Part shown: positions 45,861-57,892 of the stretch, in pieces
How positions within the stretch are numbered: position 1 is the stretch's first letter
Layout of the letters: each line of letters begins with the position of its first letter
NCBI GenBank assembly: GCA_008107755.1
Contig: VIRH01000058.1
Coordinates: forward strand, 248,001-312,000
Length of the DNA: 64,000 nt
DNA from: Rhodobacterales bacterium
GTDB taxonomy: Bacteria > Pseudomonadota > Alphaproteobacteria > Rhizobiales > Stappiaceae
Direction of reading: 5' to 3'
Translations under genes and position numbers: made by a program
The notes under the pieces: generated by a model
What the model saw: the letters and a program-made list of their open reading frames with translations, nothing else
Databases searched by the model: none
Told to the model about the DNA's origin: nothing

Positions 45861-47834
45861 CTAAAACGTGCGGATTGCCTCGCCAAGTGTCTCCCGGATT
45901 TCCGCTTCTCGCTTTTCCAGCTCCGCAATCTGCTGATCGATTTCCTCAATCCGCGTTTCCGACTGCGTCAGCTTGAACGCCGAGCTTTTATAGAGGTCGG
46001 CGCCTGGTTCAACCGCAGCAAGGTTGGCCCTGTGCCGCTGCTGATCAGTGGTTTCCTCTGCCTTGTCTCGCTGAAGACCTTCGATCCGGCGGGTGACCTG
46101 AGTGATCTCCGACTGCAGAGCGGCCAGATCCTGCAGTTTTTCCGCAGTTTCCGGGTCGGGAGCACGGTTTGACAGATCGAGAAGCTGATCGGCGCTTGTG
46201 CGCACGAGCGCGAAGGTCTCGCTGATCGTCTTTTCGGAGACGGCAGACACGGTTTCCGTGGCCCCCTCTGCGACGTCGATCTTGAGGCGGTTATGGGTTG
46301 GCGTATCCTCGAAATGCTGCGGCGAAGAGAACTTCCAGCCATGCATCCTCGGGTGTTCGATCACGACAGTACGGTCCCCATCGGGCGCTCCCTTGATGAC
46401 ATAGGAAACAGTCGATTTTTCCAGAACAGATGCGGTCAGAACACCGTTCACCACCTTGATCTTCGTGATCCTGTAGTCCGGCTCGCGTGTCTGATTAATG
46501 CGCACCTTCTTGTCGGTGGCAAAGCTGGCGAGCCGGCTTTCGCCAGATGGCATACCGCCGATACGGGCGTCTCCGACGTAGCCCTCCGTTCGGTCGTAAA
46601 CCGTCAGGATGCCTTGCGGCAGGCTCGTATCCGTTTCGTTGCGGATCAGGATCGCCGCGACTGGATGCTGAGACCCGCTGCCTGGCTGAAACACGGAAAC
46701 GGTCTCCGCCGGCACCACCTTGTCGACGATCGGCGCCGACAGGGTCTCGCCGCTTTGCAGGCTCACCGGCCAGGGGATCTGGAACGAAGCCGTGACCGCG
46801 CCTTCGCTGGCCTCACCAACCTGAGCTTCGGCCATTTCGAAGGCATCGAAAGATGGCGCGGCCTCTGCCAAGGGGGCTGGCAGAGCATTTCTGTCCGCCA
46901 GACCACTGCGCTGCAGCTTGCGTTCGCTTCTAAAAGTGTCTGAGGACGGCTCGGCGCCTTCATCCATGGGCGGCACATAACCGGCCGAGACATCAACAGG
47001 GACTTCCAGTCGCTCTTTCCAGTAGAGGTCATGCAGGCGCTGTTTCAGTGTCACCGGCGCGCCGGACGACAGGGTGACTTCGACATTGTCCCAGTCTTCG
47101 CCGCTCGCATTTTCCAGAATGGCCCAAGCCTGAAGGCGCGCGGTATCATCGTCCATCGTCACAATGCGATAAGCGGTTTTCCAGATCGGAGCCGGAACCA
47201 CATAGGAGACCGCCACCTCTCTCTCGCCCTCACCGGTGACTTTCAGCGACACGCTTCGTGAGCCGTCCGACTTGCCGCTACCGACGGCGGACAACGCCTT
47301 GACGACCTTCTCTCGAATATCCTCATCGAGAAACGTGATTTCCGTATCAGGCTCCAGCTCGACACCAACGATTTTGCCATTACTCAGCACAGAAACCACA
47401 TCGACGCTGCCGCGATCACCCCGGTTGCGCGACGAAACGCCGAGCACCATCCCCTCCGTCTGCGACCCGGCCCGATCAAGTCGTACATTCGTGCCCTGGA
47501 GCCTCGCAAGCAGCAGGGCCGGCGACTGCAGATCCTCCTCTGCAAAAGGCAGGTTCTTGAAGGTTTCGGCTAGCGGGCTTGGGCCCGGAAGCGTGATTCC
47601 CTCTACCGCGCCGGCATCATCGAAGACGACGATACTCTTCAGAACATCGTTCACCTGTTCCAGCGGAATGGTCATTCGGATAAGGCCGTCGCTGTCGATA
47701 TCAGCCTTTCTGACCACTTCGGCAAGCCCGCCCGACGACAGGGTAATGCTGGTGATCGGTCCATTGTCGGCGGCAAGCACCGCAAGTGGATGGACAAGAA
47801 AGACAATGGCACTGCAGGACAATCGAAAAAACAT
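45861..47834 (-). CDS. DUF4139-domain exported protein
   Basis: Encodes about 657 residues. ATG 47834 has GGAG nine bases upstream and starts a signal peptide (MFFRLSCSAIVFLVHPLAVL, cleavage near AA-DN). The DUF4139 body shows SYVVPAPIWKTAYRIVTMDD, LQAWAILENASGEDWDNVEV, TLSSGAPVTLKQ and YVIKGAPDGDRTVVIEHPRM. The C-terminal ~100 residues form a predicted coiled coil (EKLQDLAALQSEITQVTRRI ... IDQQIAELEKREAEIRETLG). Related mucoidy-inhibitor MuiA/DUF4139 proteins are poorly characterised. Location outside the inner membrane is inferred. It is a stand-alone gene between gph and the tRNA-Val gene. Confidence 0.87.
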   Translation of the reverse strand: MFFRLSCSAIVFLVHPLAVLAADNGPITSITLSSGGLAEVVRKADIDSDGLIRMTIPLEQVNDVLKSIVVFDDAGAVEGITLPGPSPLAETFKNLPFAEEDLQSPALLLARLQGTNVRLDRAGSQTEGMVLGVSSRNRGDRGSVDVVSVLSNGKIVGVELEPDTEITFLDEDIREKVVKALSAVGSGKSDGSRSVSLKVTGEGEREVAVSYVVPAPIWKTAYRIVTMDDDTARLQAWAILENASGEDWDNVEVTLSSGAPVTLKQRLHDLYWKERLEVPVDVSAGYVPPMDEGAEPSSDTFRSERKLQRSGLADRNALPAPLAEAAPSFDAFEMAEAQVGEASEGAVTASFQIPWPVSLQSGETLSAPIVDKVVPAETVSVFQPGSGSQHPVAAILIRNETDTSLPQGILTVYDRTEGYVGDARIGGMPSGESRLASFATDKKVRINQTREPDYRITKIKVVNGVLTASVLEKSTVSYVIKGAPDGDRTVVIEHPRMHGWKFSSPQHFEDTPTHNRLKIDVAEGATETVSAVSEKTISETFALVRTSADQLLDLSNRAPDPETAEKLQDLAALQSEITQVTRRIEGLQRDKAEETTDQQRHRANLAAVEPGADLYKSSAFKLTQSETRIEEIDQQIAELEKREAEIRETLGEAIRTF

Positions 47835-48227
47835 GGACCAAAACTCCGAAACAGACGAGCGATCAATGAGATATGCAGAATGAGGCCTTTTGAGGATATG
47901 GAGGCAGCCGAATGGGCTACCGGCCTCGAGGATGGACCCGCCCCGACTTGCTCCTGTCGCGCTTTTTCTGCCGAAAAGTTGGGGTCAATGATTTCGGTTA
48001 AAACGTTGGTGCAAGTCCGCCAGTGCTCAGTTTGCCAGGGTAGCTGCGATCGGCTCACCGCATTCGCCCCCGCTCTCCAGCCAGCACGGAACGTGACACA
48101 GGCACCAAAAAACGCGCGAAATTGGAAGTGGATATGGGAAAGCGTTGGGAATGGAAATCCGACCCGCAAAAAGGGGATTGCGCAACACGTGGGATTGCCG
48201 TAGATACGCGCCACACCGATGATATTC
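47835..48227. other. Non-coding stretch upstream of tRNA-Val
   Basis: About 390 bases. Long frames cross it on both strands but lack ribosome-binding sites and protein-like composition, and one runs through the tRNA. It carries the promoters of the DUF4139 gene and of the tRNA; nothing more is recognised. Confidence 0.4.
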
Positions 48228-48302
48228 GGGCGATTAGCTCAGCGGGAGAGCACTCCCTTCACACGGGAGGGGTCACTGGTTCAATCCCAGTATCGCCCAC
48301 CA
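48228..48302 (+). tRNA. tRNA-Val (anticodon CAC), CCA encoded
   Basis: A full cloverleaf: acceptor GGGCGAT (48228-48234) with ATCGCCC (48292-48298), D arm GCTC/GAGC, anticodon stem CTCCC/GGGAG enclosing loop TTCACAC (anticodon CAC, reading GUG valine codons), T arm ACTGG-TTCAATC-CCAGT, then ACCA encoded in the DNA. A TTTTT run follows immediately and may terminate transcription. Confidence 0.96.
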
Positions 48303-48404
48303 TTTTTCCAGTCTTTAGATATCAGAATCCCCCCCTGCCGTTGGCTTGAGGATCAGCAAGCTGTGCGTTTGACTGTGTTCAAGATGACCGTCTGGCGACA
48401 CGGT

Positions 48405-48437
48405 CTGCCGCGGCTCGGGGGCAACGTTCCGCGGCAG
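48405..48437. repeat. Inverted repeat between tRNA-Val and the HD-domain gene
   Basis: CTGCCGCGG (48405-48413) and CCGCGGCAG (48429-48437), perfect 9-bp arms around 15 bases. There is no T run on either strand. It could be a weak terminator for the HD gene, whose stop is 16 bases away, or a protein site. Confidence 0.45.
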
Positions 48438-48453
48438 GACCACAAGATTGTTC

Positions 48454-48918
48454 TCAGAGCGCGCGGTGATTGCCGGCCACAGGTACGGACGCGACAGGCA
48501 TCGTGACGCCGGCAAGGAACTCAAGCCCGTTCTCGTAAAGTGTGGTATCGCGACCGGCGGATTTCGCCTGTTCGAGGTCATCCTTGAGATCTTCAACCTT
48601 GACCGAATGCGCCATGGCGTCTTCAAAAACGCGGCAGAGGTAGCTTGTCTCGGTTTCGCTCGGGCGCTGCGTCAGCGCATCGATCGCGCACAGGATATCG
48701 CGATCGAAGCCAACATGAGCCAGCCGCTCCAAAGACCAGCACTCGGATTTGGCAATGACATCGTGTAGATACGCAATTGTCTTCTGCTTGGTGTCGATCA
48801 AGGCATCCGACATTCGTGCGCAGTGCCCGACATAAGGCTTTCCGAAGCTGTCCTTCTGACCCTTGTGGGCGTCAGCGGCGATCTTTTTCGCCAGTTCAAG
48901 CTGCATGTCCTCGTTCAT
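48454..48918 (-). CDS. Small HD-domain protein resembling (p)ppGpp hydrolases
   Basis: Encodes about 154 residues. The N-terminal part follows the RelA/SpoT hydrolase pattern: AADAHKGQKDSFGKPYVGHC, then ARMSDAL and TIAYLHDVIAKSECWSLERL. Metal-binding His32 and His52-Asp53 are present, but the second half of the HDxxED motif reads Ala-Lys (HDVIAK), so the usual catalytic Glu-Asp is lost. No synthetase domain is present. ATG 48918 is preferred because GGAG lies six bases upstream; ATG 48930 or 48954 are possible. It might hydrolyse another nucleotide, bind without cleaving, or be inactive. It stands alone after the tRNA-Val gene. Confidence 0.78.
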   Translation of the reverse strand: MNEDMQLELAKKIAADAHKGQKDSFGKPYVGHCARMSDALIDTKQKTIAYLHDVIAKSECWSLERLAHVGFDRDILCAIDALTQRPSETETSYLCRVFEDAMAHSVKVEDLKDDLEQAKSAGRDTTLYENGLEFLAGVTMPVASVPVAGNHRAL

Positions 48919-49930: not shown

Positions 49931-51784
49931 ATGGCAACGCAAACGGCTGCAAACCCGCTCAGGGAAAAACTGGTCAAGGGACTGGGATACCAACAGGCGG
50001 GAGAGCTTGAAAAGGCGCGCCGTCAGTACAAGGACGTTTTGAAGAAAGCGCCGAAGAACGCCGACGCCCTTCATCTGCTCGGTGTAACCTACAGGCAGAT
50101 GGGCTTTCCCAAGCGGGCGATGGATTACATCACCAAGGCTATCGCCTCCGATCCCAAACAATCCGTCTTTTATGCCAACCTCGCCCGTGTGATGCTGGAC
50201 TTGGGCACCGACGCCGACAGCCTTCTTGCCGTAACCAACAAGGCACTTTCCCTGAACCCCAAGGAGCGTGAGGCGCGTAATATCAAGGCCATCGCCTTGA
50301 CGAAGAAGAAGGAATATCAGGAGGCGGAGTTCCTCTACCAGGGTCTGATCGTCGACTATCCGGATTTTGCCGAGGCCTATCAGAATTTCGGATCACTGCT
50401 GATCGAAGCCGGACAGGAAGAACATGCAGTCAATTTTTTTTCCAAGGCGATCATGCTCGACCCGAGCAACGTCAACGATTTCATTCAGCGTGCACGATGC
50501 CGGTTAAAGCTCAAGCAATATGAGGCCTCGCAGTATGAATTGACCGAAGCCCTGGAACGCTTTCCAGGCAACACCGAGGTGGATCATGAAGCCGCCCGAC
50601 TGCTGTTCTCGATGAACGAAACCCGTAAGGCTGTCGAATACGCTCGCAAGACTGTCGCTTCCGATCCGAAGAACTACCACAAGATGATCACGCTTGGCGT
50701 CAGCCTACTCATGAATGGGGCGTTGGAAGAATCGCTTGAAGCGATGATGAAAGCTCGCAAGCTTGCGCCAGAGGGCAACGAGACGGTCGAATGGAACCTG
50801 TCACTGGCTTATCTGGCGAATGGCGAGCTGAAAAAAGGTTGGGCCCTCCACCGGGCACGCTTTGACGACCCACAAACGCAAGTTCATCGCCGCAAATTCA
50901 AAGTACCGGAGTGGAAAGGCGAGGATATTTCCGACAAGACCATTCTGGTGTGGACCGACCAGGGTCTCGGCGACGCCCTTAGAACCGGCACCATGCTTCC
51001 GGAGATTATTTCACGCGCAGGCAAGGTGATCGTCGAACTGTCCGAGAAGGGTGCAAGGTTCATGCAGCATTCCTTTTCCCAGACTCAATGCCGCAAAAGC
51101 GCAATGGACGAGGAAATGATGGCGAAGAACACTGACTTCGACCTTCATGTGAACATTGGCGACATGGCAGAGTTCTTCCGGCCGGACATTGAGGCGTTCA
51201 GGAAAGCGCCTTGCCCGGTTTACACGTTCGAGAAGGACCGCGCACGCGACTACCTGAAGCGCCTAGCGGGTCACGAGGAAAAGCCTGTGATCGGCTTTTC
51301 GTGGCGTTCGAAGAACCTTGCTGCGAACCGCGCGCGCTATTACCTCTCGGCACCGGCTATTGCGCCAATCCTCGCCTCTCGCGATGCGATATTTGTCAAT
51401 TTGCAGTATGAAGCAATCGACAAGGAGATCGCCTTCTTCAGCGAGCAATTCCCGGACAAGTTCCATTTCTTCAAGGATGTAGATCTCTTCGATGACCTTC
51501 TGGGTGCAGCCGCGCTGACCGCGTGCTGCGACTTCGTTGTTTCAGCCAACACAAGTGTCGCCGACATGGCTGGCATTCTTGATGTGCCAGCGATCCGTTT
51601 CGGGCAACAGGAACCTGCCCTGCTGCTCGGCGAGAAAAACCCACCCTGGTATCCGTCGATGACGTACATGCACCCTTATGTCGACAGGCCATGTGCCGAC
51701 TTCGTGCCGGAAATTATCGCGGAAATGGACCGACAACTGGAGAACTGGACCCCGGAGCGCAGAAACAGGCGCCTGGAGCATTAG
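49931..51784 (+). CDS. TPR-containing glycosyltransferase (FlmG-like layout)
   Basis: Encodes about 617 residues. Residues ~10-300 are seven or more tetratricopeptide repeats (ARRQYKDVLKKAPKNADALH, AEFLYQGLIVDYPDFAEAYQ). Residues ~330-610 are a GT-B glycosyltransferase half with ILVWTDQGLGDALRTGTMLP, PVIGFSWRSKNLAANRARYY, and the donor-side ALTACCDFVVSANTSVADMA followed by GILDVPAIRF and NPPWYPSMTYMHP. TPR-GT proteins of this layout include Caulobacter FlmG, which adds a nonulosonic acid to flagellin. The convergent neighbour operon encodes CMP-nonulosonate enzymes, so this protein probably transfers that sugar to a protein bound by its TPRs. Acceptor unknown. GAGACGAC precedes the ATG. Confidence 0.88.
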   Translation: MATQTAANPLREKLVKGLGYQQAGELEKARRQYKDVLKKAPKNADALHLLGVTYRQMGFPKRAMDYITKAIASDPKQSVFYANLARVMLDLGTDADSLLAVTNKALSLNPKEREARNIKAIALTKKKEYQEAEFLYQGLIVDYPDFAEAYQNFGSLLIEAGQEEHAVNFFSKAIMLDPSNVNDFIQRARCRLKLKQYEASQYELTEALERFPGNTEVDHEAARLLFSMNETRKAVEYARKTVASDPKNYHKMITLGVSLLMNGALEESLEAMMKARKLAPEGNETVEWNLSLAYLANGELKKGWALHRARFDDPQTQVHRRKFKVPEWKGEDISDKTILVWTDQGLGDALRTGTMLPEIISRAGKVIVELSEKGARFMQHSFSQTQCRKSAMDEEMMAKNTDFDLHVNIGDMAEFFRPDIEAFRKAPCPVYTFEKDRARDYLKRLAGHEEKPVIGFSWRSKNLAANRARYYLSAPAIAPILASRDAIFVNLQYEAIDKEIAFFSEQFPDKFHFFKDVDLFDDLLGAAALTACCDFVVSANTSVADMAGILDVPAIRFGQQEPALLLGEKNPPWYPSMTYMHPYVDRPCADFVPEIIAEMDRQLENWTPERRNRRLEH

Positions 51785-51832
51785 AGCCCGCCCGTGGGTG
51801 TTCGATCCCGGAAATTTTACAGGAAGAGAAGA

Positions 51833-52711
51833 TCAACCTGGATTGCGCATGACTGCAACGAGCGTATCAGTCGCGTCGATCCGGTTGAGTGCTGCCTCGT
51901 ATGCATGGGTGAGATCCGGCGTATCGAGCGCGGCAAGCCCGGACTTGTGGCCGCCGGGTCGGCCGGAAGCCAGCCAGGTCAGATGGTTGGACAGCGGATA
52001 ACGCTGCACGCCCTCAACTACGATATTCTCGAATCCCGCTGCGGCCAAGAGCCGCCGCAGGCTGTCGCGTGTGTGAAGGACAAGGTGCTGGCTCCAGAGC
52101 GTGAAGGCCCTGAAGGCATCGTTGTCCAGCTCGTTCAACAGGAAATCACCTGCGTGGGGAACCTCGATCACGACCGTACCTCCGGGCTTCACAACACGGC
52201 AGAGGTCTTTCAAAATGGGCAGCGGATCGGGCAGATGCTCCAGCACATGGAAACTGACAGCTGTATCCATGCTGCCGTCCTCCAGAGCCGCAAGCGATGT
52301 GTGGCAGGCGATGCCCTCCCGGTTGAGTGCGTCGACATAATCCTTCTGAAGCTCGACGCCGCAACACGACAGGGTCTCGCTTTGAACCTTGCGCAGAAAG
52401 CTGCCATCGCCACAGCCGAAATCGACGACATGCCGGCCGCAGACATAAGGCTTGCAGGCAGCATACCGGCGCTCCGCGTTGCGGGAGATTTCGTAGTCAC
52501 GCGAGCCGGTTTTCGCCAGATTGATGCCCCGGTAGCTGCCGGCCTCATAAACCTCGTCGCCACCGTAGAAGCCGTCGATATAGATAACACCAGAACGGCG
52601 GTCACGATAGACCGTGACATCGTCCCGGTCCCGGGTCCGGGTCGCATAGACCTCGCGGTCCGCTTCGCTCGCAACGCCTATTTCCGCAAGCGCCTCAAAA
52701 ATGCCCGTCAT
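51833..52711 (-). CDS. Class I SAM-dependent methyltransferase
   Basis: Encodes about 292 residues. The methyltransferase core (about 85-200) has motif I HVVDFGCGDGSFLRKVQSET, then CGVELQKDYVDALNREGI, DTAVSFHVLEHLPDPLPILK and VKPGGTVVIEVPHAGDF. The N-terminal ~80 residues (TVYRDRRSGVIYIDGFYGGD) and the C-terminal part resemble methyltransferases of surface-sugar clusters. GAGAGG lies nine bases before ATG 52711. It is the last gene of the neuB-gmd-neuA-like operon, 46 bases after neuA, and converges on the TPR glycosyltransferase. A role in O- or N-methylating the nonulosonic acid or glycan is inferred. Confidence 0.88.
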   Translation of the reverse strand: MTGIFEALAEIGVASEADREVYATRTRDRDDVTVYRDRRSGVIYIDGFYGGDEVYEAGSYRGINLAKTGSRDYEISRNAERRYAACKPYVCGRHVVDFGCGDGSFLRKVQSETLSCCGVELQKDYVDALNREGIACHTSLAALEDGSMDTAVSFHVLEHLPDPLPILKDLCRVVKPGGTVVIEVPHAGDFLLNELDNDAFRAFTLWSQHLVLHTRDSLRRLLAAAGFENIVVEGVQRYPLSNHLTWLASGRPGGHKSGLAALDTPDLTHAYEAALNRIDATDTLVAVMRNPG

Positions 52712-52757
52712 GACACTAAGCCTCTCAGGGTTGCCTCTTTTCAAATCAACTCGGACT

Positions 52758-53450
52758 TTAATCCCGATTGCGTCCCCAGGCCTTCGCGAAAGCCTCTAAA
52801 GCAATCCAATCATTCGGCGTATCCAGATCGATCTCCGTGGCCCCGGTCAGAACGACCGGAACACTCTTGCCGAAGAAGCGCTGTCCAGCCTTGCAGAAGC
52901 CCTCCTTTTCGAGTGCGTAGATCGCACCGGTTTCCCGGAACTGCGCCGGCCTGTCCTGGCGGCGCTCGCGGGGCTGCGTTGCGTCATGATTTATACCGAT
53001 GCCGGTGCCGTCGGGTGCGATCTCCCAAAGGAAGGCATGTACTTCGACGACCGAAAAGGCTGTGTCGGCCTCATGGCGCTCTCGAGTGCGCACGACCGTA
53101 TCGATCTCACCAGCCGTCGTCAGCGGCGATGTGCACTGCAGGAAGACGATGGTCTGCACCTCCCGGCAAACATCGCACATCTCGATCGCGTGCAACAATG
53201 CAGACTCCGAAGACGCCTCATCGCCCGATATTTCGATCGGTCGCAGCAACGGGATCGCCCCAGCAAGTCTTGCAACCTCAAGGATCGCCGGATCGTCGCT
53301 CGTAACGACCACGTCGGAGACCGTTTCAGCAGCCAGAGCAGCGCGGATGGAATGAACGACCAGGGGTATATCCAGAAAAGGTTTGATGTTCTTTCCCGGA
53401 ATGCCCTTCGACCCGCCCCTGGCAGGAATGATGGCAACAGCCCGCTCCAT
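52758..53450 (-). CDS. CMP-nonulosonic acid synthetase (acylneuraminate cytidylyltransferase family)
   Basis: Encodes about 230 residues. The NeuA/PseF/LegF N-terminus is diagnostic: AVAIIPARGGSKGIPGKNIK (CTP-binding loop), then PFLDIPLVVHSIRAAL, VVVTSDDPAILEVARLAGA, IVFLQCTSPLTTAGEID, and RETGAIYALEKEGF with TEIDLDTPNDW (metal-binding Asp pair) near the C-terminus. It activates a nonulosonic acid with CTP to the CMP-sugar donor. GGAGGG precedes ATG 53450. It lies 21 bases after gmd and 46 before the methyltransferase. Which acid (sialic, legionaminic, pseudaminic or a new one) is activated cannot be told by eye. Confidence 0.92.
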   Translation of the reverse strand: MERAVAIIPARGGSKGIPGKNIKPFLDIPLVVHSIRAALAAETVSDVVVTSDDPAILEVARLAGAIPLLRPIEISGDEASSESALLHAIEMCDVCREVQTIVFLQCTSPLTTAGEIDTVVRTRERHEADTAFSVVEVHAFLWEIAPDGTGIGINHDATQPRERRQDRPAQFRETGAIYALEKEGFCKAGQRFFGKSVPVVLTGATEIDLDTPNDWIALEAFAKAWGRNRD

Positions 53451-53471
53451 GGCGCCCTCCACCTTGCGCTC

Positions 53472-54503
53472 CTAGAGACCGGGATTTCCGGCGGCGGCTT
53501 TCTTCAGGTCGTAGATCGCCATGCGCCGGGCGATCTCCGGTGCCAAGACTTCCGGCTTCCAGCCGAGCTGTTCCTGCGCCTTGCTGTTGTCGCCGCGCAG
53601 GTAAACCACGTCCGAAGCTCGGAAGTAGCGCGGATCGACATAGGCGATCAGCTTGCCGGTCTTGCGGTCAAAGCATTTCTCATCCACGCCTTCACCTTCC
53701 GAAACAAGATCAAAGCCCATTTCCTGTGCTGCCATGAACAGGAATTCGCGCACAGTGTGTTCCGTGTTGGTGGAAATCACGAAATCGTCCGGCTTGTCAT
53801 GGTCGAGCATGCGCACCATCATGTCCGTATATTCCGGCGCATAACCCCAGTCGCGCACGCTGCTCAGATTTCCCAGCGGCACCGCTTCCGCGTCCTGCAG
53901 CTTGATGCGCGCCAGCCAGCTGGTGATCTTCCGGGTCACGAATTCGTATCCGCGCAGCTCTGACTCGTGATTGAACAAAATGCCGGAGGTCGCGAACATG
54001 CCATAGGCATGGCGGTAGTTCACTACCAGCGAGTGCGCCGCCAGCTTTGAAACCGCGTAAGGGCTCAGCGGGTTGAACGGTGTCTTTTCCGACTGCGGCT
54101 TCTCAAGTACGTCGCCGTACATTTCCGAGGTCGATGCCTGGTAAAGACGAGCATCCATTTTGAGAACGCGCAAGGCTTCAAGTATATTCAAAACGCCGAT
54201 GTAGTTCACCCCCGACGTATAGTGCGGGAACTTGAAACTATCTCCCACGAAGCTCTGCGCCGAGAGGTTGAAGATCAAATCCGGACGGATCTCGTCCAGC
54301 ACGGCCTGGACATTTGCAAACTCCGTTACCTCAAGAGAGCAGAAATTCACCTTGTCACGAATTCCCAGCTCCTTGAGACGCCCTGTCTTGGACGTGCTAC
54401 CGCGCCGCATTGCGCCATAGACTTCGTCACCACGTCCCACAAGGGCACGGGCCAGAAATGCACCATCCTGTCCTGTGACGCCGATGATCAGTACTCTAGC
54501 CAT
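53472..54503 (-). CDS. gmd: GDP-mannose 4,6-dehydratase-like NDP-sugar enzyme
   Basis: Encodes about 343 residues of the extended SDR family. Seen: VLIIGVTGQDGAFLARALVG (cofactor loop GxTGQDG), MRRGSTSKTGRLKELGIRDK, IFNLSAQSFVGDSFKFPHYT, YQASTSEMYGDVLEKPQSEK (Ser/Thr plus Glu of dehydratases), YAVSKLAAHSLVVNYR (Tyr/Lys) and DWGYAPEYTDMMVRML. These are Gmd-like, but the GDP-GlcNAc dehydratase LegB of the legionaminic pathway belongs to the same group, so either substrate is possible. Its ATG overlaps the neuB stop by eight bases (translational coupling), and neuA follows 21 bases later. Confidence 0.85.
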   Translation of the reverse strand: MARVLIIGVTGQDGAFLARALVGRGDEVYGAMRRGSTSKTGRLKELGIRDKVNFCSLEVTEFANVQAVLDEIRPDLIFNLSAQSFVGDSFKFPHYTSGVNYIGVLNILEALRVLKMDARLYQASTSEMYGDVLEKPQSEKTPFNPLSPYAVSKLAAHSLVVNYRHAYGMFATSGILFNHESELRGYEFVTRKITSWLARIKLQDAEAVPLGNLSSVRDWGYAPEYTDMMVRMLDHDKPDDFVISTNTEHTVREFLFMAAQEMGFDLVSEGEGVDEKCFDRKTGKLIAYVDPRYFRASDVVYLRGDNSKAQEQLGWKPEVLAPEIARRMAIYDLKKAAAGNPGL

Positions 54504-56319
54504 GTTTTTCTCCCAATTTCAGGATGGCGTTTTCAAAGCCGTCGCCTTCGGACAGATGCCCCTGCCAGACTTCCAGCACCTTGCGGCCGGGTGCGTCGAT
54601 ATAGATGCTCGGATCGCCGAGATCCCCCTTGCCGAACTCTATGCCCTCGCCGTCGATCCCCACGGCGTCGGCAATATGCAGATGGCGCGCAAGGGGCATG
54701 AGCGCATCGCACCAGACCCGCCAGTCCACCTTGGCATAATTGGCGGAGAGAATGAGATGCGAAAGATCAAGGCACAGTTCCATTCCGATCTCGCGAACGA
54801 TATCGATGTCATCTGCGCCACAGAACATGTCGAGTACGTCCGCGCCGCCGAAATACCAGGCGATCCGCGGCAGCCACTGCGGATAGATCGGTATTCCCCG
54901 CGCCTTGCCCGCGCTCTCGAGAAAATCTTGGAGGCGCGTGTAGGTGGCGCGTTTTCCGTCCGGAAGCAGTCTTGAAAAACTGCCGACGACAGGAACGGCA
55001 GCGCCGGTCCTTGTCTCCAGTTCCAGCGCCAGGTCCACACAGGTAGCGATCATCCGGTCGCTTCCCTGCCGTATTTCCGCCTCGCCCGACAGCGGATCGA
55101 TCAGCGTCTTGCTGTCAATGTAATCGGGAATATGGATGGAGTACTGGCGGGTGAGATCGAGCCTTGCAAGATTTTCCTCCATGGCATCATTAAAAGAGGC
55201 CACTTCCTGAAAGGACAGATGAAGCTCGTTGTTGAGAATTGGAAACCGGGACTGCAAGATCGCCGCGTCATGAAGGCGGATCGGAATGGAAAGATGCTTT
55301 TCGTCGCAAAACACGACAAGGGCTTCGCTCAGCGGCGGTTTTGGCTCGGTGAAATGGAATTCCGAGAGTGCTGTTCCCGCAGCGACAGGACGCCTGACCG
55401 CCGACAGTCCGCGCCTTTTCAAGCCAGCCCTTGTCAGCCCCTTCCTCGGCGCCTTGATGATGGTGTTGTCGTGGCTGACCTTTTCACCCGCAGCAATATC
55501 GCAGCTTGCGTAAAGTGACGATCCAAGGTTCTGCATGTTGATGCGCTCGCCCTGGTTCACCTCGCGGCGTTCATTGCCCTGGATGCTGTCATAAGCATTC
55601 AACAGCCGACACAAGCGCCGAAACTCTTCTGGGTCGGAACTCGAGCTGTCGTCGATGCCCTTGCCATGCTTGTCCATTGTCAGATGGCGTTCGAAGACGG
55701 TCGCGCCGTTTGCGGCGGCGACGAGGCAGACTTCCCAGTCCTGATCGTGACTTGAATAGCCGACTTCTGCCCCGGTTCTTTCCTTGAGTGTCCGCAGGAA
55801 TGCCATCTGCTGGTTTCCCAGGAGCACGGGATAATTGGATATGCAATGAAGATAGATGACGTCCGAAAACACCGATGACGTGTCGACCGCGTGGAAGATG
55901 TCGTCCTCATCATGCCCGCCGGTGCTCAGGATAAGCGGTTTGCCGAGCCCCGCCAGAGAGGCGATCAGGTCCTCGTTCAAAAGTTCCGCCGACGGCACCT
56001 TGAAGAAATCGAACCGGTGGAGATCGTCCCCGAAATCAGCAGCATCCTCGAACTTGAAAAAACTGATCCCGGCCGCCATGCCGCCCGCACCGATCTGGTC
56101 CACCAGTTTCAGAACGTCGTCGGGCGAAATGTAGCTGGCGTCGATTTCTCGCGAAAGGATTTCATCGCCGATCTCGTTGGTAGCCTGATAGAAGCCCTCC
56201 CGCGCGCGGTACTGGAACTTGACGCCCCAGGCGCCTGCCTCCCGAGCAATCTCGATCAACTGCGCCGCGACATCGAGCGAGCCACGGTGGTTGATGCCCA
56301 ATTCGGCAATTACTTTCAT
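54496..56319 (-). CDS. NeuB-like nonulosonate synthase fused to a xylose-isomerase-like TIM barrel
   Basis: Encodes about 607 residues. Residues ~1-265: NeuB/LegI/PseI synthase, KVIAELGINHRGSLDVAAQL, WGVKFQYRAREGF, LHCISNYPVLLGNQQMAF, and the Mn-ligand histidines in VGYSSHDQDWE and ATVFERHLTMDKHGKG. The usual DH of GPDHxxSLEP reads DD (KGIDDSSSSDPEEF). Residues ~266-330: SAF domain (GSSLYASCDIAAGEKVSHDN, KAPRKGLTRAGL). Residues ~335-605: a sugar isomerase/epimerase-type TIM barrel (GMELCLDLSHLILSANYAKV, LARHLHIADAVGIDGEGIEF, KVLEVWQGHLSEGDGFENAI) with Glu/Asp/His candidates for metal binding. The synthase condenses phosphoenolpyruvate with a 6-carbon amino sugar; the barrel might make that sugar. 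First gene of the operon. ATG 56319 used; TTG 56328 possible. Confidence 0.88.
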   Translation of the reverse strand: MKVIAELGINHRGSLDVAAQLIEIAREAGAWGVKFQYRAREGFYQATNEIGDEILSREIDASYISPDDVLKLVDQIGAGGMAAGISFFKFEDAADFGDDLHRFDFFKVPSAELLNEDLIASLAGLGKPLILSTGGHDEDDIFHAVDTSSVFSDVIYLHCISNYPVLLGNQQMAFLRTLKERTGAEVGYSSHDQDWEVCLVAAANGATVFERHLTMDKHGKGIDDSSSSDPEEFRRLCRLLNAYDSIQGNERREVNQGERINMQNLGSSLYASCDIAAGEKVSHDNTIIKAPRKGLTRAGLKRRGLSAVRRPVAAGTALSEFHFTEPKPPLSEALVVFCDEKHLSIPIRLHDAAILQSRFPILNNELHLSFQEVASFNDAMEENLARLDLTRQYSIHIPDYIDSKTLIDPLSGEAEIRQGSDRMIATCVDLALELETRTGAAVPVVGSFSRLLPDGKRATYTRLQDFLESAGKARGIPIYPQWLPRIAWYFGGADVLDMFCGADDIDIVREIGMELCLDLSHLILSANYAKVDWRVWCDALMPLARHLHIADAVGIDGEGIEFGKGDLGDPSIYIDAPGRKVLEVWQGHLSEGDGFENAILKLGEKHG

Positions 56320-56634: not shown

Positions 56635-57447
56635 TTAGCCGACGAAGGCACGCTCGACGACAAACTCGGCGGGCTTGTTATTGGCCCCTTCGTTGAGGCC
56701 CGCGTCTTCCAGGAGCTGTTTGGTATCGCGCAGCATTTCCATCGAGCCGCAGATCATGCCGCGATCTACCGCGGGATCAAGAGGCGGAACGCCGAGATCC
56801 GTGAACAGCTTGCCGGACTTGATGAGATCGGTGATGCGACCCTGGCGCGGAAACGCTTCGCGGGTCACGGAGGTGTAGTGCACCAGCTTGTCCTTCGCGA
56901 ACTCACCGATAAGGGGATCATTGATCGTTTCACGGACGAGGTCCTCGCCGTATTTCAGCTCCGCAACTTCCCGGCACGTTTGCGTGAGGATGACCTGGTC
57001 GAACTTCTCGTAAGTATCCGGATCGCGGATCAGGCTCGCGAAAGGAGCAATTCCGGTGCCGGTGGAGAACATGTAGACGCGCTTGCCGGGGATCAAGGCA
57101 TCATTGACGAGCGTACCGGTGGATTTCTTCTTCATCAGGACCGCATCGCCTGGCTGTATCTTCTGAAGATGCGACGTCAGCGGACCGTCCGGCACCTTGA
57201 TAGAGAAGAACTCGAGCTCCTCGTCCCAGGCGGGACTTGCGATGGAATAGGCACGGTAAAGGGGCTTGCCGTCAATCATCAAGCCAATCATGACAAATTC
57301 GCCGGACCTGAACCGAAAGCTTGCGGGACGCGTCATGCGGAATCGGAACAGTCGATCCGTGTAATGCTGGACGCTCTTCACCTCTTCCACGAAGGCGCCG
57401 GCCGGCGCGAGAGCTTCAAGGTCGGAAGGTTTGGCAAGTACGTTCAT
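56635..57447 (-). CDS. fpr: Ferredoxin-NADP+ reductase
   Basis: Encodes about 270 residues, typical of bacterial subclass FPR enzymes that move electrons between NADPH and ferredoxin or flavodoxin. Seen: FRFRSGEFVMIGL, the FAD motif RAYSIASPAWDEELEFFSI, VPDGPLTSHLQKIQPGD, the NADP-binding loop MFSTGTGIAPFASLIRD and GMICGSMEMLRDTKQLLEDA. The C-terminus is extended past the FAD (KPAEFVVERAFVG), as in alphaproteobacterial members. ATG 57447 is used; a GTG at 57453 is also in frame. It is divergent from the GlxA-type regulator and has its own strong terminator. Oxidative-stress control, common for fpr, is not visible here. Confidence 0.94.
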   Translation of the reverse strand: MNVLAKPSDLEALAPAGAFVEEVKSVQHYTDRLFRFRMTRPASFRFRSGEFVMIGLMIDGKPLYRAYSIASPAWDEELEFFSIKVPDGPLTSHLQKIQPGDAVLMKKKSTGTLVNDALIPGKRVYMFSTGTGIAPFASLIRDPDTYEKFDQVILTQTCREVAELKYGEDLVRETINDPLIGEFAKDKLVHYTSVTREAFPRQGRITDLIKSGKLFTDLGVPPLDPAVDRGMICGSMEMLRDTKQLLEDAGLNEGANNKPAEFVVERAFVG

Positions 57448-57892
57448 GGTCACTGGTGTCCGTTCATCGTCGCATTTTTCAAACTCGACATGATGTACCC
57501 CACTCCAGCCTTGACTTGAAGCAACTCAGATCCTCCAAATCCACGTTAATCAAAAAAATCATTCTAAAAACGCTCAAGTTTCGGAAGGTCGCGCGCAATC
57601 CGTTGCTTTTCTGCGGCGGAAATCGCCGTGAGAATTTCGCAGTGCGCATCAAACGTCTTCGCTTCAACACATCTCAGGCGACGGCAAAAACCGCCGAGGC
57701 CAAAAAGCAGGCACGCTCGCGACCAATTTTCACGCAAGAGATCGCTTCGTAAGCAAGCGCCCGGCTGAATTGTGACATTTATAAGAATGTATTGAATTAC
57801 CGAGTTTTTTATTTGACACCCAAAGATAAAGTGTAAAACTCTCAGAATAAGAAAGATAAGATACAATAAAACCTTCCAACGAGGCTTAGTAT
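57448..57892. other. AT-rich intergenic stretch between fpr and the GlxA-type regulator
   Basis: About 445 bases, clearly more AT-rich from 57760 onward. It contains a candidate promoter for the regulator near 57813-57839. Frames inside it (for example 57564-57935 minus) run into the regulator start and look like chance. Confidence 0.45.
57813..57839 (+). promoter_or_regulatory. Candidate sigma-70-type promoter of the GlxA-type regulator
   Basis: A perfect TTGACA (57813-57818), a 15-base spacer and TAAAAC (57834-57839), a fair -10 box with a short spacer. It sits about 55 bases before the start codon at 57893. Confidence 0.35.

Follow-up and report, generated by a model that had tools for sequence, protein, structure and literature searches.

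The GT half of FlmG-type protein glycosyltransferases reportedly reads the donor sugar and can be exchanged, and Kint et al. are said to have reprogrammed the donor in this way. In the legionaminic acid route of Campylobacter, a GDP-sugar dehydratase acts upstream of a NeuB-type synthase, and Kdn is made from mannose-6-phosphate and PEP by way of a Kdn-9-phosphate phosphatase and a CMP-Kdn synthetase. The leg/ptm genes of Campylobacter, which belong to this route with GDP-linked precursors, are listed in PMC13317340. In FlmG of C. crescentus, the TPR half binds flagellins, residues 309-596 form the GT half, and the enzyme works with a NeuB; its donor is pseudaminic acid, made by a scattered six-gene pathway (PMC7591256). 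The same paper does not settle whether activated nonulosonic acids other than this one can serve FlmG as donors. The locus described here has, in contrast, its donor genes in a compact operon, with a Gmd and with NeuB as part of a fusion. This gene set of a marine Roseibium probably makes an unusual sialic-acid-like sugar with which the bacterium modifies proteins of its own, flagellin being the most likely one. In related bacteria, other sets of sugar genes have taken its place at this site of the genome.

In the window, which is the whole stretch of 64,000 nucleotides that was analysed, a FlmG-like TPR-glycosyltransferase (TPR-GT; 49931..51784, plus strand, 617 aa) faces four minus-strand genes that encode a two-barrel NeuB fusion (54496..56319, 607 aa from the ATG, or 610 aa from an alternative TTG start 9 nt upstream), a Gmd-type GDP-mannose 4,6-dehydratase (53472..54503, 343 aa; GDP_Man_Dehyd, PF16363, 375 bits), a cytidylyltransferase resembling CMP-nonulosonate synthetases (52758..53462, 234 aa; CTP_transf_3, PF02348, 77 bits), and a SAM-dependent methyltransferase (51833..52744, 303 aa; Methyltransf_23). 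All five open reading frames of a preliminary description of this DNA are present, as is the 8-nt overlap of neuB and gmd that it pointed out; the other gaps in the operon are 13 and 9 nt, and the methyltransferase and TPR-GT genes converge at a distance of 48 nt. The constant flank of the interval that is exchanged among strains is a ferredoxin-NADP-reductase-like gene (FNR; 56635..57453, minus strand) outside the pathway, which is 82-96% identical and in the same position in the genus loci where it was seen, the exceptions being cassette type F and locus L131, which ends before it. A search of relatives for the same gene set, as had been proposed, found the five genes in unchanged order in each of the 15 other Roseibium/Labrenzia loci that were examined in full (11/11 and 4/4, the latter being L139-L142, with a tandem duplication of the TPR-GT in L142), so that the arrangement is not a matter of chance, and the overlap is retained in 9 of the 11 loci of the first set, in which it was counted. 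A nonulosonate-type operon facing a TPR-GT is thus borne out by gene families and layout, but the term compact module, while it fits the operon, undersells the locus, as every genome of the genus keeps the TPR-GT while the donor genes next to it vary by exchange. By composition, the cassette does not stand out as foreign DNA (58.2% G+C versus 59.6% for the window).

By the description in PMC7591256, FlmG shares with the TPR-GT the layout of an N-terminal TPR and a C-terminal GT half (596 versus 617 aa). In the TPR-GT, the TPR array covers about residues 1-306 and the glycosyltransferase-like half about residues 300-617. The former matches Pfam TPR families, and its helical repeats (residues 9-306) are modelled confidently over most of their length, whereas the latter is poorly modelled, and a profile of 17 sequences gave only chance-like PDB matches; 36 residues are invariant in 17/17 TPR-GTs, and 27 of these lie at or beyond position 298. 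Besides the N-terminal TPR array, the linkage to nonulosonic acid synthesis that marks the FlmG class is also found, as 35 of the 41 family genomes with a TPR-GT encode a NeuB no more than 8 kb away from it. Among all 61 family genomes, 39 encode both proteins, 2 only a TPR-GT (27% identity), 7 only a NeuB and 13 neither, while in the genus the TPR-GT has a homologue in all 45 genomes.

The NeuB ORF is nearly twice as long as usual, since the protein continues at its C-terminus into a second TIM barrel, which the first reading had missed. Residues 1-253 (55561..56319, minus strand) belong to the NeuB synthase family (PF03102, 140 bits, cutoff 22.1) and form a barrel with the PEP/metal active-site residues. 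The fusion stays below the cutoffs of the NeuB equivalog (175 bits, cutoff 399.65) and the PseI equivalog (145 bits, cutoff 340.25), the former being strict, since the NeuB beside a certified NeuC in the sister-genus locus L163 also falls below it (349.8 bits). Residues 328-607 (54499..55338, minus strand) are predicted to form a xylose-isomerase-like TIM barrel, which is the operon's only candidate for a missing sugar-processing step. The window protein itself gave no Pfam match to PF01261 (AP_endonuc_2) in this part at 1e-3; the homologous C-terminal domains of all five relatives scanned, 24-29% identical to that of the window, match it with 67.7-86.8 bits (1e-18 to 1e-24). A profile of 13 second-barrel domains matches the uncharacterised MJ1311 (3wqo), the nearest solved sequence, at 3.8e-7, and a match of this profile to 3lmz (E 0.045) was left out of the fold evidence. 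The predicted structure of the fusion is of middling confidence (pLDDT 67, pTM 0.49) and has alternating strands and helices in the C-terminal part; as the Foldseek and VIA lists are filled by the NeuB barrel, the fold of the second barrel rests on sequence and on this modelled strand-helix order. Invariant in 15/15 are E365, H367, H396, Q481, D518, H521, H546, H548, D551, E583 and H588, which look like metal ligands, and with the sugar isomerases and epimerases of PF01261 the barrel shares the D-x-x-H / H-x-H / E motif pattern and, judged by its relatives, the sequence family. In contrast to those enzymes, it is fused to NeuB, and no paper on such a NeuB-isomerase fusion was found among open-licence PMC papers. 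Several distant fusions adjoin other precursor enzymes (HddA/HddC-like, a class-III aminotransferase, SDRs), and the role of the second barrel may therefore not be specific for mannose. The missing textbook steps of the preliminary description are real insofar as the standard enzymes are absent at the locus, but with an additional catalytic-looking domain the gene set is not simply lacking steps.

The Gmd scores 362.2 bits against the equivalog TIGR01472 (cutoff 415) and 82 bits against LegB (cutoff 475). It aligns over nearly its full length with the GDP-D-mannose dehydratase 2z1m and retains the STSE and YxxxK motifs, and it may thus well work like a Gmd without the status of a certified equivalog. 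The association of a GDP-sugar dehydratase with NeuB that had been noticed in the window recurs, as Gmd adjoins the fusion in 15/15 loci with the window's cassette (type A), and in L128 and L129 a Gmd at 40-41% identity adjoins diverged fusions (43-44%) outside the TPR-GT locus. In Ensifer canadensis, a relative is encoded near a mannose-1-phosphate guanylyltransferase (652 bits, cutoff 373). The best NCBIfam family of the CMP-synthetase is PseF (TIGR03584), with 127.8 bits below the cutoff of 205.7, and cassette types A, B, C2 and E all keep a methyltransferase homologue (52-81% identity) next to the TPR-GT. Methylation of the sugar is plausible.

On balance it seems probable that the locus encodes a cytoplasmic protein O-glycosylation system in which Gmd and the fusion make an amino-free nonulosonic acid that is put on flagellin. 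Gmd would convert GDP-mannose to GDP-4-keto-6-deoxymannose, and the fusion may condense PEP with a six-carbon sugar derived from it to an amino-free, deoxygenated nonulosonic acid (9-deoxy-Kdn-like), with the C-terminal barrel most likely contributing an epimerisation, isomerisation or release step, for which standard routes have separate enzymes. GDP release and the handling of the 4-keto group would have to fit in here, and neither a hydrolase releasing the sugar from GDP nor a 4-keto reductase was found in the operon. The cytidylyltransferase would then form the CMP-sugar, the methyltransferase would probably methylate the sugar, and the TPR-GT would bind the acceptor with its TPR half and transfer the sugar to flagellin before export. 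As in the Campylobacter legionaminic acid route, a GDP-sugar dehydratase would precede a NeuB-type synthase, and the methyltransferase may modify the sugar, but the dehydratase there is LegB and here Gmd-like, and that route needs an aminotransferase, an N-acetyltransferase and a hydrolase/2-epimerase, none of which is seen at the window locus. With Kdn biosynthesis, the proposed route would have in common an amino-free nonulosonic acid derived from a manno sugar, but in type A there is no match for a HAD phosphatase, and Gmd and the second barrel are found instead.

Beside the TPR-GT, 17 of the 45 genus genomes have the window cassette, 24 have other NeuB sets, 2 (type E) only a methyltransferase, and 2 (L132, L133) nothing recognised between FNR and TPR-GT; these last four genomes all carry a NeuB elsewhere. 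By our own grouping, nine NeuB-containing donor sets thus occur beside one orthologous transferase. Type B cassettes carry a HAD domain with the KDN-9-phosphatase as best family (88 bits, cutoff 180) and have no Gmd, and in one case (L107) the GT half in front of such a cassette is A-like. The fusion of type I (L057) is a distant one, and no Gmd match was obtained at that locus. Not all cassettes are amine-free, as L121 has a class-IV aminotransferase, and L163, in the sister genus, has NeuC (certified), NeuB and a CMP-synthetase at the same locus.

These variants bear on the question whether Gmd belongs to the nonulosonic acid route at all. It could serve a second sugar (of the GDP-rhamnose, -fucose or -talose type) in the same glycosylation system, the fusion using mannose, mannose-6-phosphate or another housekeeping hexose to make Kdn or methyl-Kdn; the Kdn-like type B cassettes without any Gmd, their junction with an A-like GT half in L107, the distant type I fusion and the lack of a hydrolase or reductase that would feed a GDP-sugar into NeuB are all in line with this. 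It is nevertheless unlikely, as Gmd directly adjoins the fusion in every type-A locus, has been kept beside it in L128 and L129, where both genes are diverged (40-44%) and lie away from the TPR-GT, and has neither a second glycosyltransferase nor a 4-keto reductase recognised next to it in the type-A operon.

As to the acceptor, the window contains no flagellin gene, as had been stated, but the whole genome has five Flagellin_N matches on two contigs other than that of the locus, with FlbT following three of the flagellins. Flagellin does co-occur with the TPR-GT in 45/45 genus genomes, but as both are universal there, co-occurrence is powerless within the genus. The flagellin link, which had been drawn by analogy only, gains support from linkage in one sister-genus genome (G146), where a TPR-GT (32% identity) and a NeuB have FlgI on one side and, on the other, flagellin genes and then FlbT, and flagellin is still the presumptive acceptor by this context. 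No paper on flagellin glycosylation in Roseibium/Labrenzia was found among open-licence PMC papers. That the acceptor recognised by the TPR half in Roseibium is some other protein, secreted or on the surface, would agree with the separation of locus and flagellin genes on different contigs, far apart, and with a second TPR-GT without a NeuB seen nearby in some genomes (L137, L138, L143, L144), but the flagellar surroundings in G146 and the single TPR-GT of the own genome (at E 1e-20) speak against it, and it is hardly more than a one-in-five chance in our estimation.

In agreement with the preliminary description, the interval from the constant flank to the TPR-GT contains neither an aminotransferase nor an acetyltransferase or NDP-sugar hydrolase in the 15 loci, and as the recognised genes leave no room, there is no N-acetyltransferase, NDP-sugar hydrolase or hydrolysing 2-epimerase among them. 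The own genome (99.97% complete) has no second NeuB by PF03102 search. It has ten PF01041 (DegT/DnrJ/EryC1) matches above the Pfam cutoff of 19.8 bits, the best with 45.9 bits and none covering more than 139 of the 360 columns, and all ten score better against other PLP-enzyme families, so that a DegT-family NDP-sugar aminotransferase is absent. Judged by NeuB and DegT, a complete conventional pathway elsewhere in the genome, which would have contradicted the first reading, looks unlikely for Pse and Leg. The exclusion of the Neu5Ac route, which needs no aminotransferase, depends only on the lack of another NeuB and on the scores of the present one. That the operon makes Leg, Pse or Neu5Ac in the textbook way, helped by enzymes from other parts of the genome, is therefore very improbable, even though the C. 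crescentus pathway genes are scattered over several places (by their locus tags in PMC7591256) and NeuC-NeuB-CMPS occupies this locus in a sister genus, as the PF01041 matches belong to other families, the NeuB scores of 175 and 145 bits are far from the cutoffs of about 400 and 340, and the precursor enzyme is Gmd-like and not LegB.

For an amino-free nonulosonic acid on flagellin, we counted the TPR-GT/NeuB linkage, the flagellin context of G146, the coupling to the donor genes described below, the lack of an amine route, and manno-type GDP-linked chemistry (Gmd beside the fusion, the guanylyltransferase of Ensifer canadensis, the KDN-9-phosphatase-like HAD of type B behind an A-like GT half in L107). 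Counted against it were the lack of a GDP-release hydrolase or 4-keto reductase, the Gmd and CMP-synthetase scores below their equivalog cutoffs, the window barrel without a Pfam match, the other precursor enzymes beside several distant fusions, the amine cassettes of L121 and L163, and the loci of L132, L133 and type E. The wider reading, in which a new nonulosonic route (from GDP-mannose by way of Gmd and a two-barrel synthase, the sugar being amino-free, deoxy and possibly methylated, on flagellin) is combined with a natural modular swap site for donor genes and the donor-reading GT half, acceptor-reading half and flanks being constant, is a tentative one, with a chance somewhat below even. 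The fused NeuB and Gmd point to nonulosonic acids that, unlike those known from bacterial textbook routes, carry no amino groups, and gene searches for standard pathways would call such routes incomplete. The locus family amounts to a natural donor-swap experiment: the idea of an exchangeable GT half is shared with FlmG-type donor reprogramming, but here the exchange is natural, within one genus and together with the donor genes. With nine donor sets beside one orthologous transferase, and the GT half sorting with them, donor specificity can be mapped from natural alleles, which, like the fused NeuB, bears on the engineering of cytoplasmic O-glycosylation and on flagellar glycan variation.

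While the TPR-GT locus itself stays in place, the donor genes beside it are exchanged, and of the two halves of the transferase it is the GT half that follows them better. Cassette types were assigned before the donor test from ORF tables and Pfam matches of representatives, and all non-A loci were rechecked by tblastn; L132, L133, the second-locus or paralogous TPR-GTs (L136, L137, L138, L143, L144), the other tandem copy of L142 and all other genera were left out of statistics and trees. At a TPR identity of 60-70%, conservation of the GT half exceeds that of the TPR half by 5.1 points in same-cassette pairs (n=112), but falls short of it by 7.8 points in different-cassette pairs (n=58). The coupling statistic of 8.18 was reached in 0/2000 label shuffles, which ignore phylogeny, the TPR half serving as control. 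For pairs inside type B, C1 or C2, conservation is lower in the GT half than in the TPR half, and the sign of the same-type difference thus comes from A and D; the contrast between same-type and different-type pairs does not need type A (8.03, 0/2000). In trees made by a quick method, parts of which are unsure from long branches, the labels change 13 times on the TPR and 11 times on the GT half, the least possible being 9; the difference arises from types B (5 versus 2) and D (3 versus 1), while A, C1, C2, E and F are equal. The pair L123/L124 is not a whole-cassette swap, as the two loci match again from the HAD and NeuB genes onward and the exchange thus concerned only the TPR-GT side; with L124 relabelled or dropped, the statistic is 7.79 and 8.14, with 0/2000 shuffles as high in each case.

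The module at window positions 49931-56319 most likely represents, by analogy, a new form of flagellin glycosylation of the FlmG type, supplied by a nonulosonate route for which no description was found in the open-licence literature searched. The preliminary description, which had proposed protein glycosylation with an unusual nonulosonic acid, holds in outline, but missed that NeuB is a fusion and that donor genes are swapped at this locus; the five genes and the 8-base overlap that it reported are confirmed. On the minus strand, neuB (ATG at 56319) overlaps gmd by these 8 bases, followed with gaps of 9 and 13 nt by the genes of a CMP-sugar synthetase (CMPS) and a methyltransferase (MT), and the FlmG-like TPR-glycosyltransferase (TPR-GT) is encoded convergently on the opposite strand, 48 nt from the operon. 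The 607-aa NeuB carries a predicted xylose-isomerase-like TIM barrel (second barrel) behind its NeuB barrel. Full-length NeuBs with 73-80% identity occur in 11 loci, and as 10 of these are titled Roseibium or Labrenzia (one only Alphaproteobacteria), the genome is, judged by its relatives, one of this genus. The order AraC-FNR-NeuB-Gmd-CMPS-MT facing TPR-GT (FNR, ferredoxin-NADP-reductase-like) is kept in 11/11 of those loci and in 4/4 further genus loci. Beside the locus, a 657-aa DUF4139 protein is encoded (45861-47834) that has homologues near TPR-GT in several genus loci, and there is a tRNA-Val(cac) gene at 48228-48302, overlapped by the ORF 48219-48506, which probably is no real gene.

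The genome (99.97% complete) has only one PF03102 match, and the synthase, synthetase and dehydratase of the operon score under the equivalog cutoffs for NeuB (a strict one), PseI, PseF and Gmd. PF01041, the family of PseC/LegC-type aminotransferases, has 10 matches that exceed the cutoff in Pfam, which is low (19.8 bits; best match 45.9), but the Pfam scan places all 10 proteins better in other families of PLP enzymes (aminotransferase I/II or V, Cys/Met enzymes, SHMT, kynureninase), and they were rejected as such aminotransferases. In these genome-wide searches for NeuB and for PseC/LegC-type aminotransferases, no textbook Pse or Leg route was recognisable. Gmd adjoins the fusion in 15/15 examined loci with the window's cassette (type A), and in L128 and L129 a Gmd of 40-41% identity adjoins diverged fusions (43-44%) on contigs other than that of TPR-GT. 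The Gmd motifs, and an alignment with solved Gmds that runs nearly from end to end, favour the normal Gmd reaction. In Ensifer canadensis, a relative is encoded close to a certified mannose-1-phosphate guanylyltransferase, two relatives from the same order adjoin genes like HddA, one also like HddC (manno-heptose; 139-262 bits, under cutoffs), and the HAD domain of the type B cassette is closest to KDN-9-phosphatase (88 bits, cutoff 180). Together with the Gmd linkage, these neighbours and the HAD domain point to manno-type precursors and amino-free products. GDP release and the fate of the 4-keto group possibly involve the second barrel, the sole candidate in the operon.

The diverged clusters of L128 and L129 share a further gene (L128:5192-6580, L129:5095-6069), which in L129 matches DHDPS (61.5 bits), a superfamily that includes N-acetylneuraminate lyase; the L129 cluster also has an ABC transporter gene. 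Some NeuB-barrel fusions (L026, L044, L045) have an extra N-terminal CBS domain, as do the GHMP kinases adjoining the fusions of L027 and L029, and a shared nucleotide control is possible.

Going by linkage and analogy alone, flagellin is the likeliest acceptor. In G146, a genome of another genus, TPR-GT and NeuB have FlgI on one side and, on the other, three flagellin genes with FlbT behind them (the scan covered FlgI, FlbT and the first flagellin, the other two being assigned by sequence likeness). In C. crescentus (PMC7591256), FlmG has the two-part layout also seen in the Roseibium TPR-GT, its TPR half binds flagellins, and pseudaminic acid is required. The flagellins of the window's genome are on other contigs than the operon, and three have FlbT next. 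TPR-GT and NeuB co-occur among 61 family genomes: 39 have both, 2 only TPR-GT, 7 only NeuB and 13 neither (Fisher 9e-7, without correction for phylogeny). The two genes are at most 8 kb apart in 35 of the 41 with TPR-GT. A second TPR-GT (31-34% identical) occurs in L137, L138 and L143, in a common neighbourhood with no NeuB match and with an MgtE-like gene (scanned in L137).

TPR-GT is present in 45/45 genus genomes and the second barrel in 20/45, 17 of these reaching at least 72%. In the genus loci read, the donor genes are flanked by FNR and TPR-GT, except for type F, where the stretch read shows no FNR, and L131 (contig ends before FNR). Type A occurs in 17 genomes, for 12 of which the genome searches covered only the positions of second barrel and TPR-GT on one contig. 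Type B (9) has a short NeuB, a second methyltransferase, a synthetase fused to the HAD domain, and MT; C1 (3) another NeuB, HAD, B12-radical-SAM and another synthetase; C2 (3) NeuB, HAD and radical SAM as in C1 (the radical SAM seen in 2/3), joined to the type B synthetase-HAD and MT; D (4) a synthetase, a pyruvyl-transferase-like gene and MT behind three different NeuBs; E (2) only MT; and F (2) two NeuBs. Types G, H and I occur once each, and two genomes have no recognised gene in the interval. This mixed make-up indicates that the interval is exchanged in modules and not solely as whole cassettes. Type I (L057) has a distant NeuB-barrel fusion at the place taken in C1 by NeuB and the HAD phosphatase, while the adjoining radical SAM, methyltransferase and synthetase are the same; a locus combining a barrel fusion with a HAD match was found neither among the non-A genus loci (tblastn) nor in the type-A loci L139-L142. 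L163, from a sister genus, has NeuC-NeuB-CMPS within the same flank, an order also read in L166 from the sequence without family scan.

The B12-binding radical SAM protein (L123:10144-11886, also L112, L116, L119, L120, L130, L057) is encoded next to NeuB, often also a HAD phosphatase; in L123 it comes closest, among NCBIfam models, to a P-methyltransferase (69.6 bits, cutoff 575), and such cassettes possibly make a C- or P-methylated nonulosonic acid. An ATP-grasp (R2K) gene adjoins TPR-GT in L117 (6244-7179), with relatives in three other loci.

DNA comparisons place junctions within the TPR-GT gene, the 3' end of which encodes the GT half and faces the cassette. Between L123 (C1) and L124 (D), the first 572 nt of TPR-GT match (79.5%), then nothing up to the HAD-NeuB-FNR end (86%). 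L110 (B) and L112 (C1) share about 1.1 kb of the TPR-GT 5' end (75%) and have no further match up to the FNR gene (82%). Against this, almost the whole TPR-GT gene aligns between L110 and L116 (C1) at 70.5%.

The reading that the GT half tracks the donor genes has strong but not conclusive support, as label shuffles do not correct for phylogeny. In 861 pairs of 42 TPR-GTs, binned by TPR identity, GT conservation relative to the TPR half was +5.1 points in same-cassette pairs (n=112) and -7.8 in different-cassette pairs (n=58) at 60-70%, +0.3 (n=13) and -22 (n=7) at 70-80%, +2.9 (n=20) and -4.3 (n=356) at 50-60%, and +1.6 (n=5) and -1.6 (n=255) at 40-50%. The residual statistic of 8.18 was reached in 0/2000 shuffles, which ignore phylogeny, and likewise 8.03 without type A, 7.77 with A thinned to four and 8.43 with near-copies thinned; A-A pairs make up 120 of the 170 same-type pairs, and in B-B, C1-C1 and C2-C2 pairs conservation of the GT half is slightly below that of the TPR half. 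The trees agree in part: label changes fall from 5 on the TPR tree to 2 on the GT tree for type B and from 3 to 1 for D, are equal for the other five multi-row types, and total 13 and 11, the least possible being 9. On the GT tree, type D, with a common synthetase side but differing NeuBs, forms a single group (support 94), and it may therefore be the synthetase side, not NeuB, that the GT half tracks. Counter to such coupling, the GT half is more conserved in A-E and A-I pairs (+6.6, +4.0) despite differing cassettes, and L107 combines a type B cassette with a GT half that is A-like, which may mean that the A and B sugars are alike. In L107 (G684), both TPR-GT halves group with type A, and this locus probably represents a recent donor swap with the transferase unchanged.
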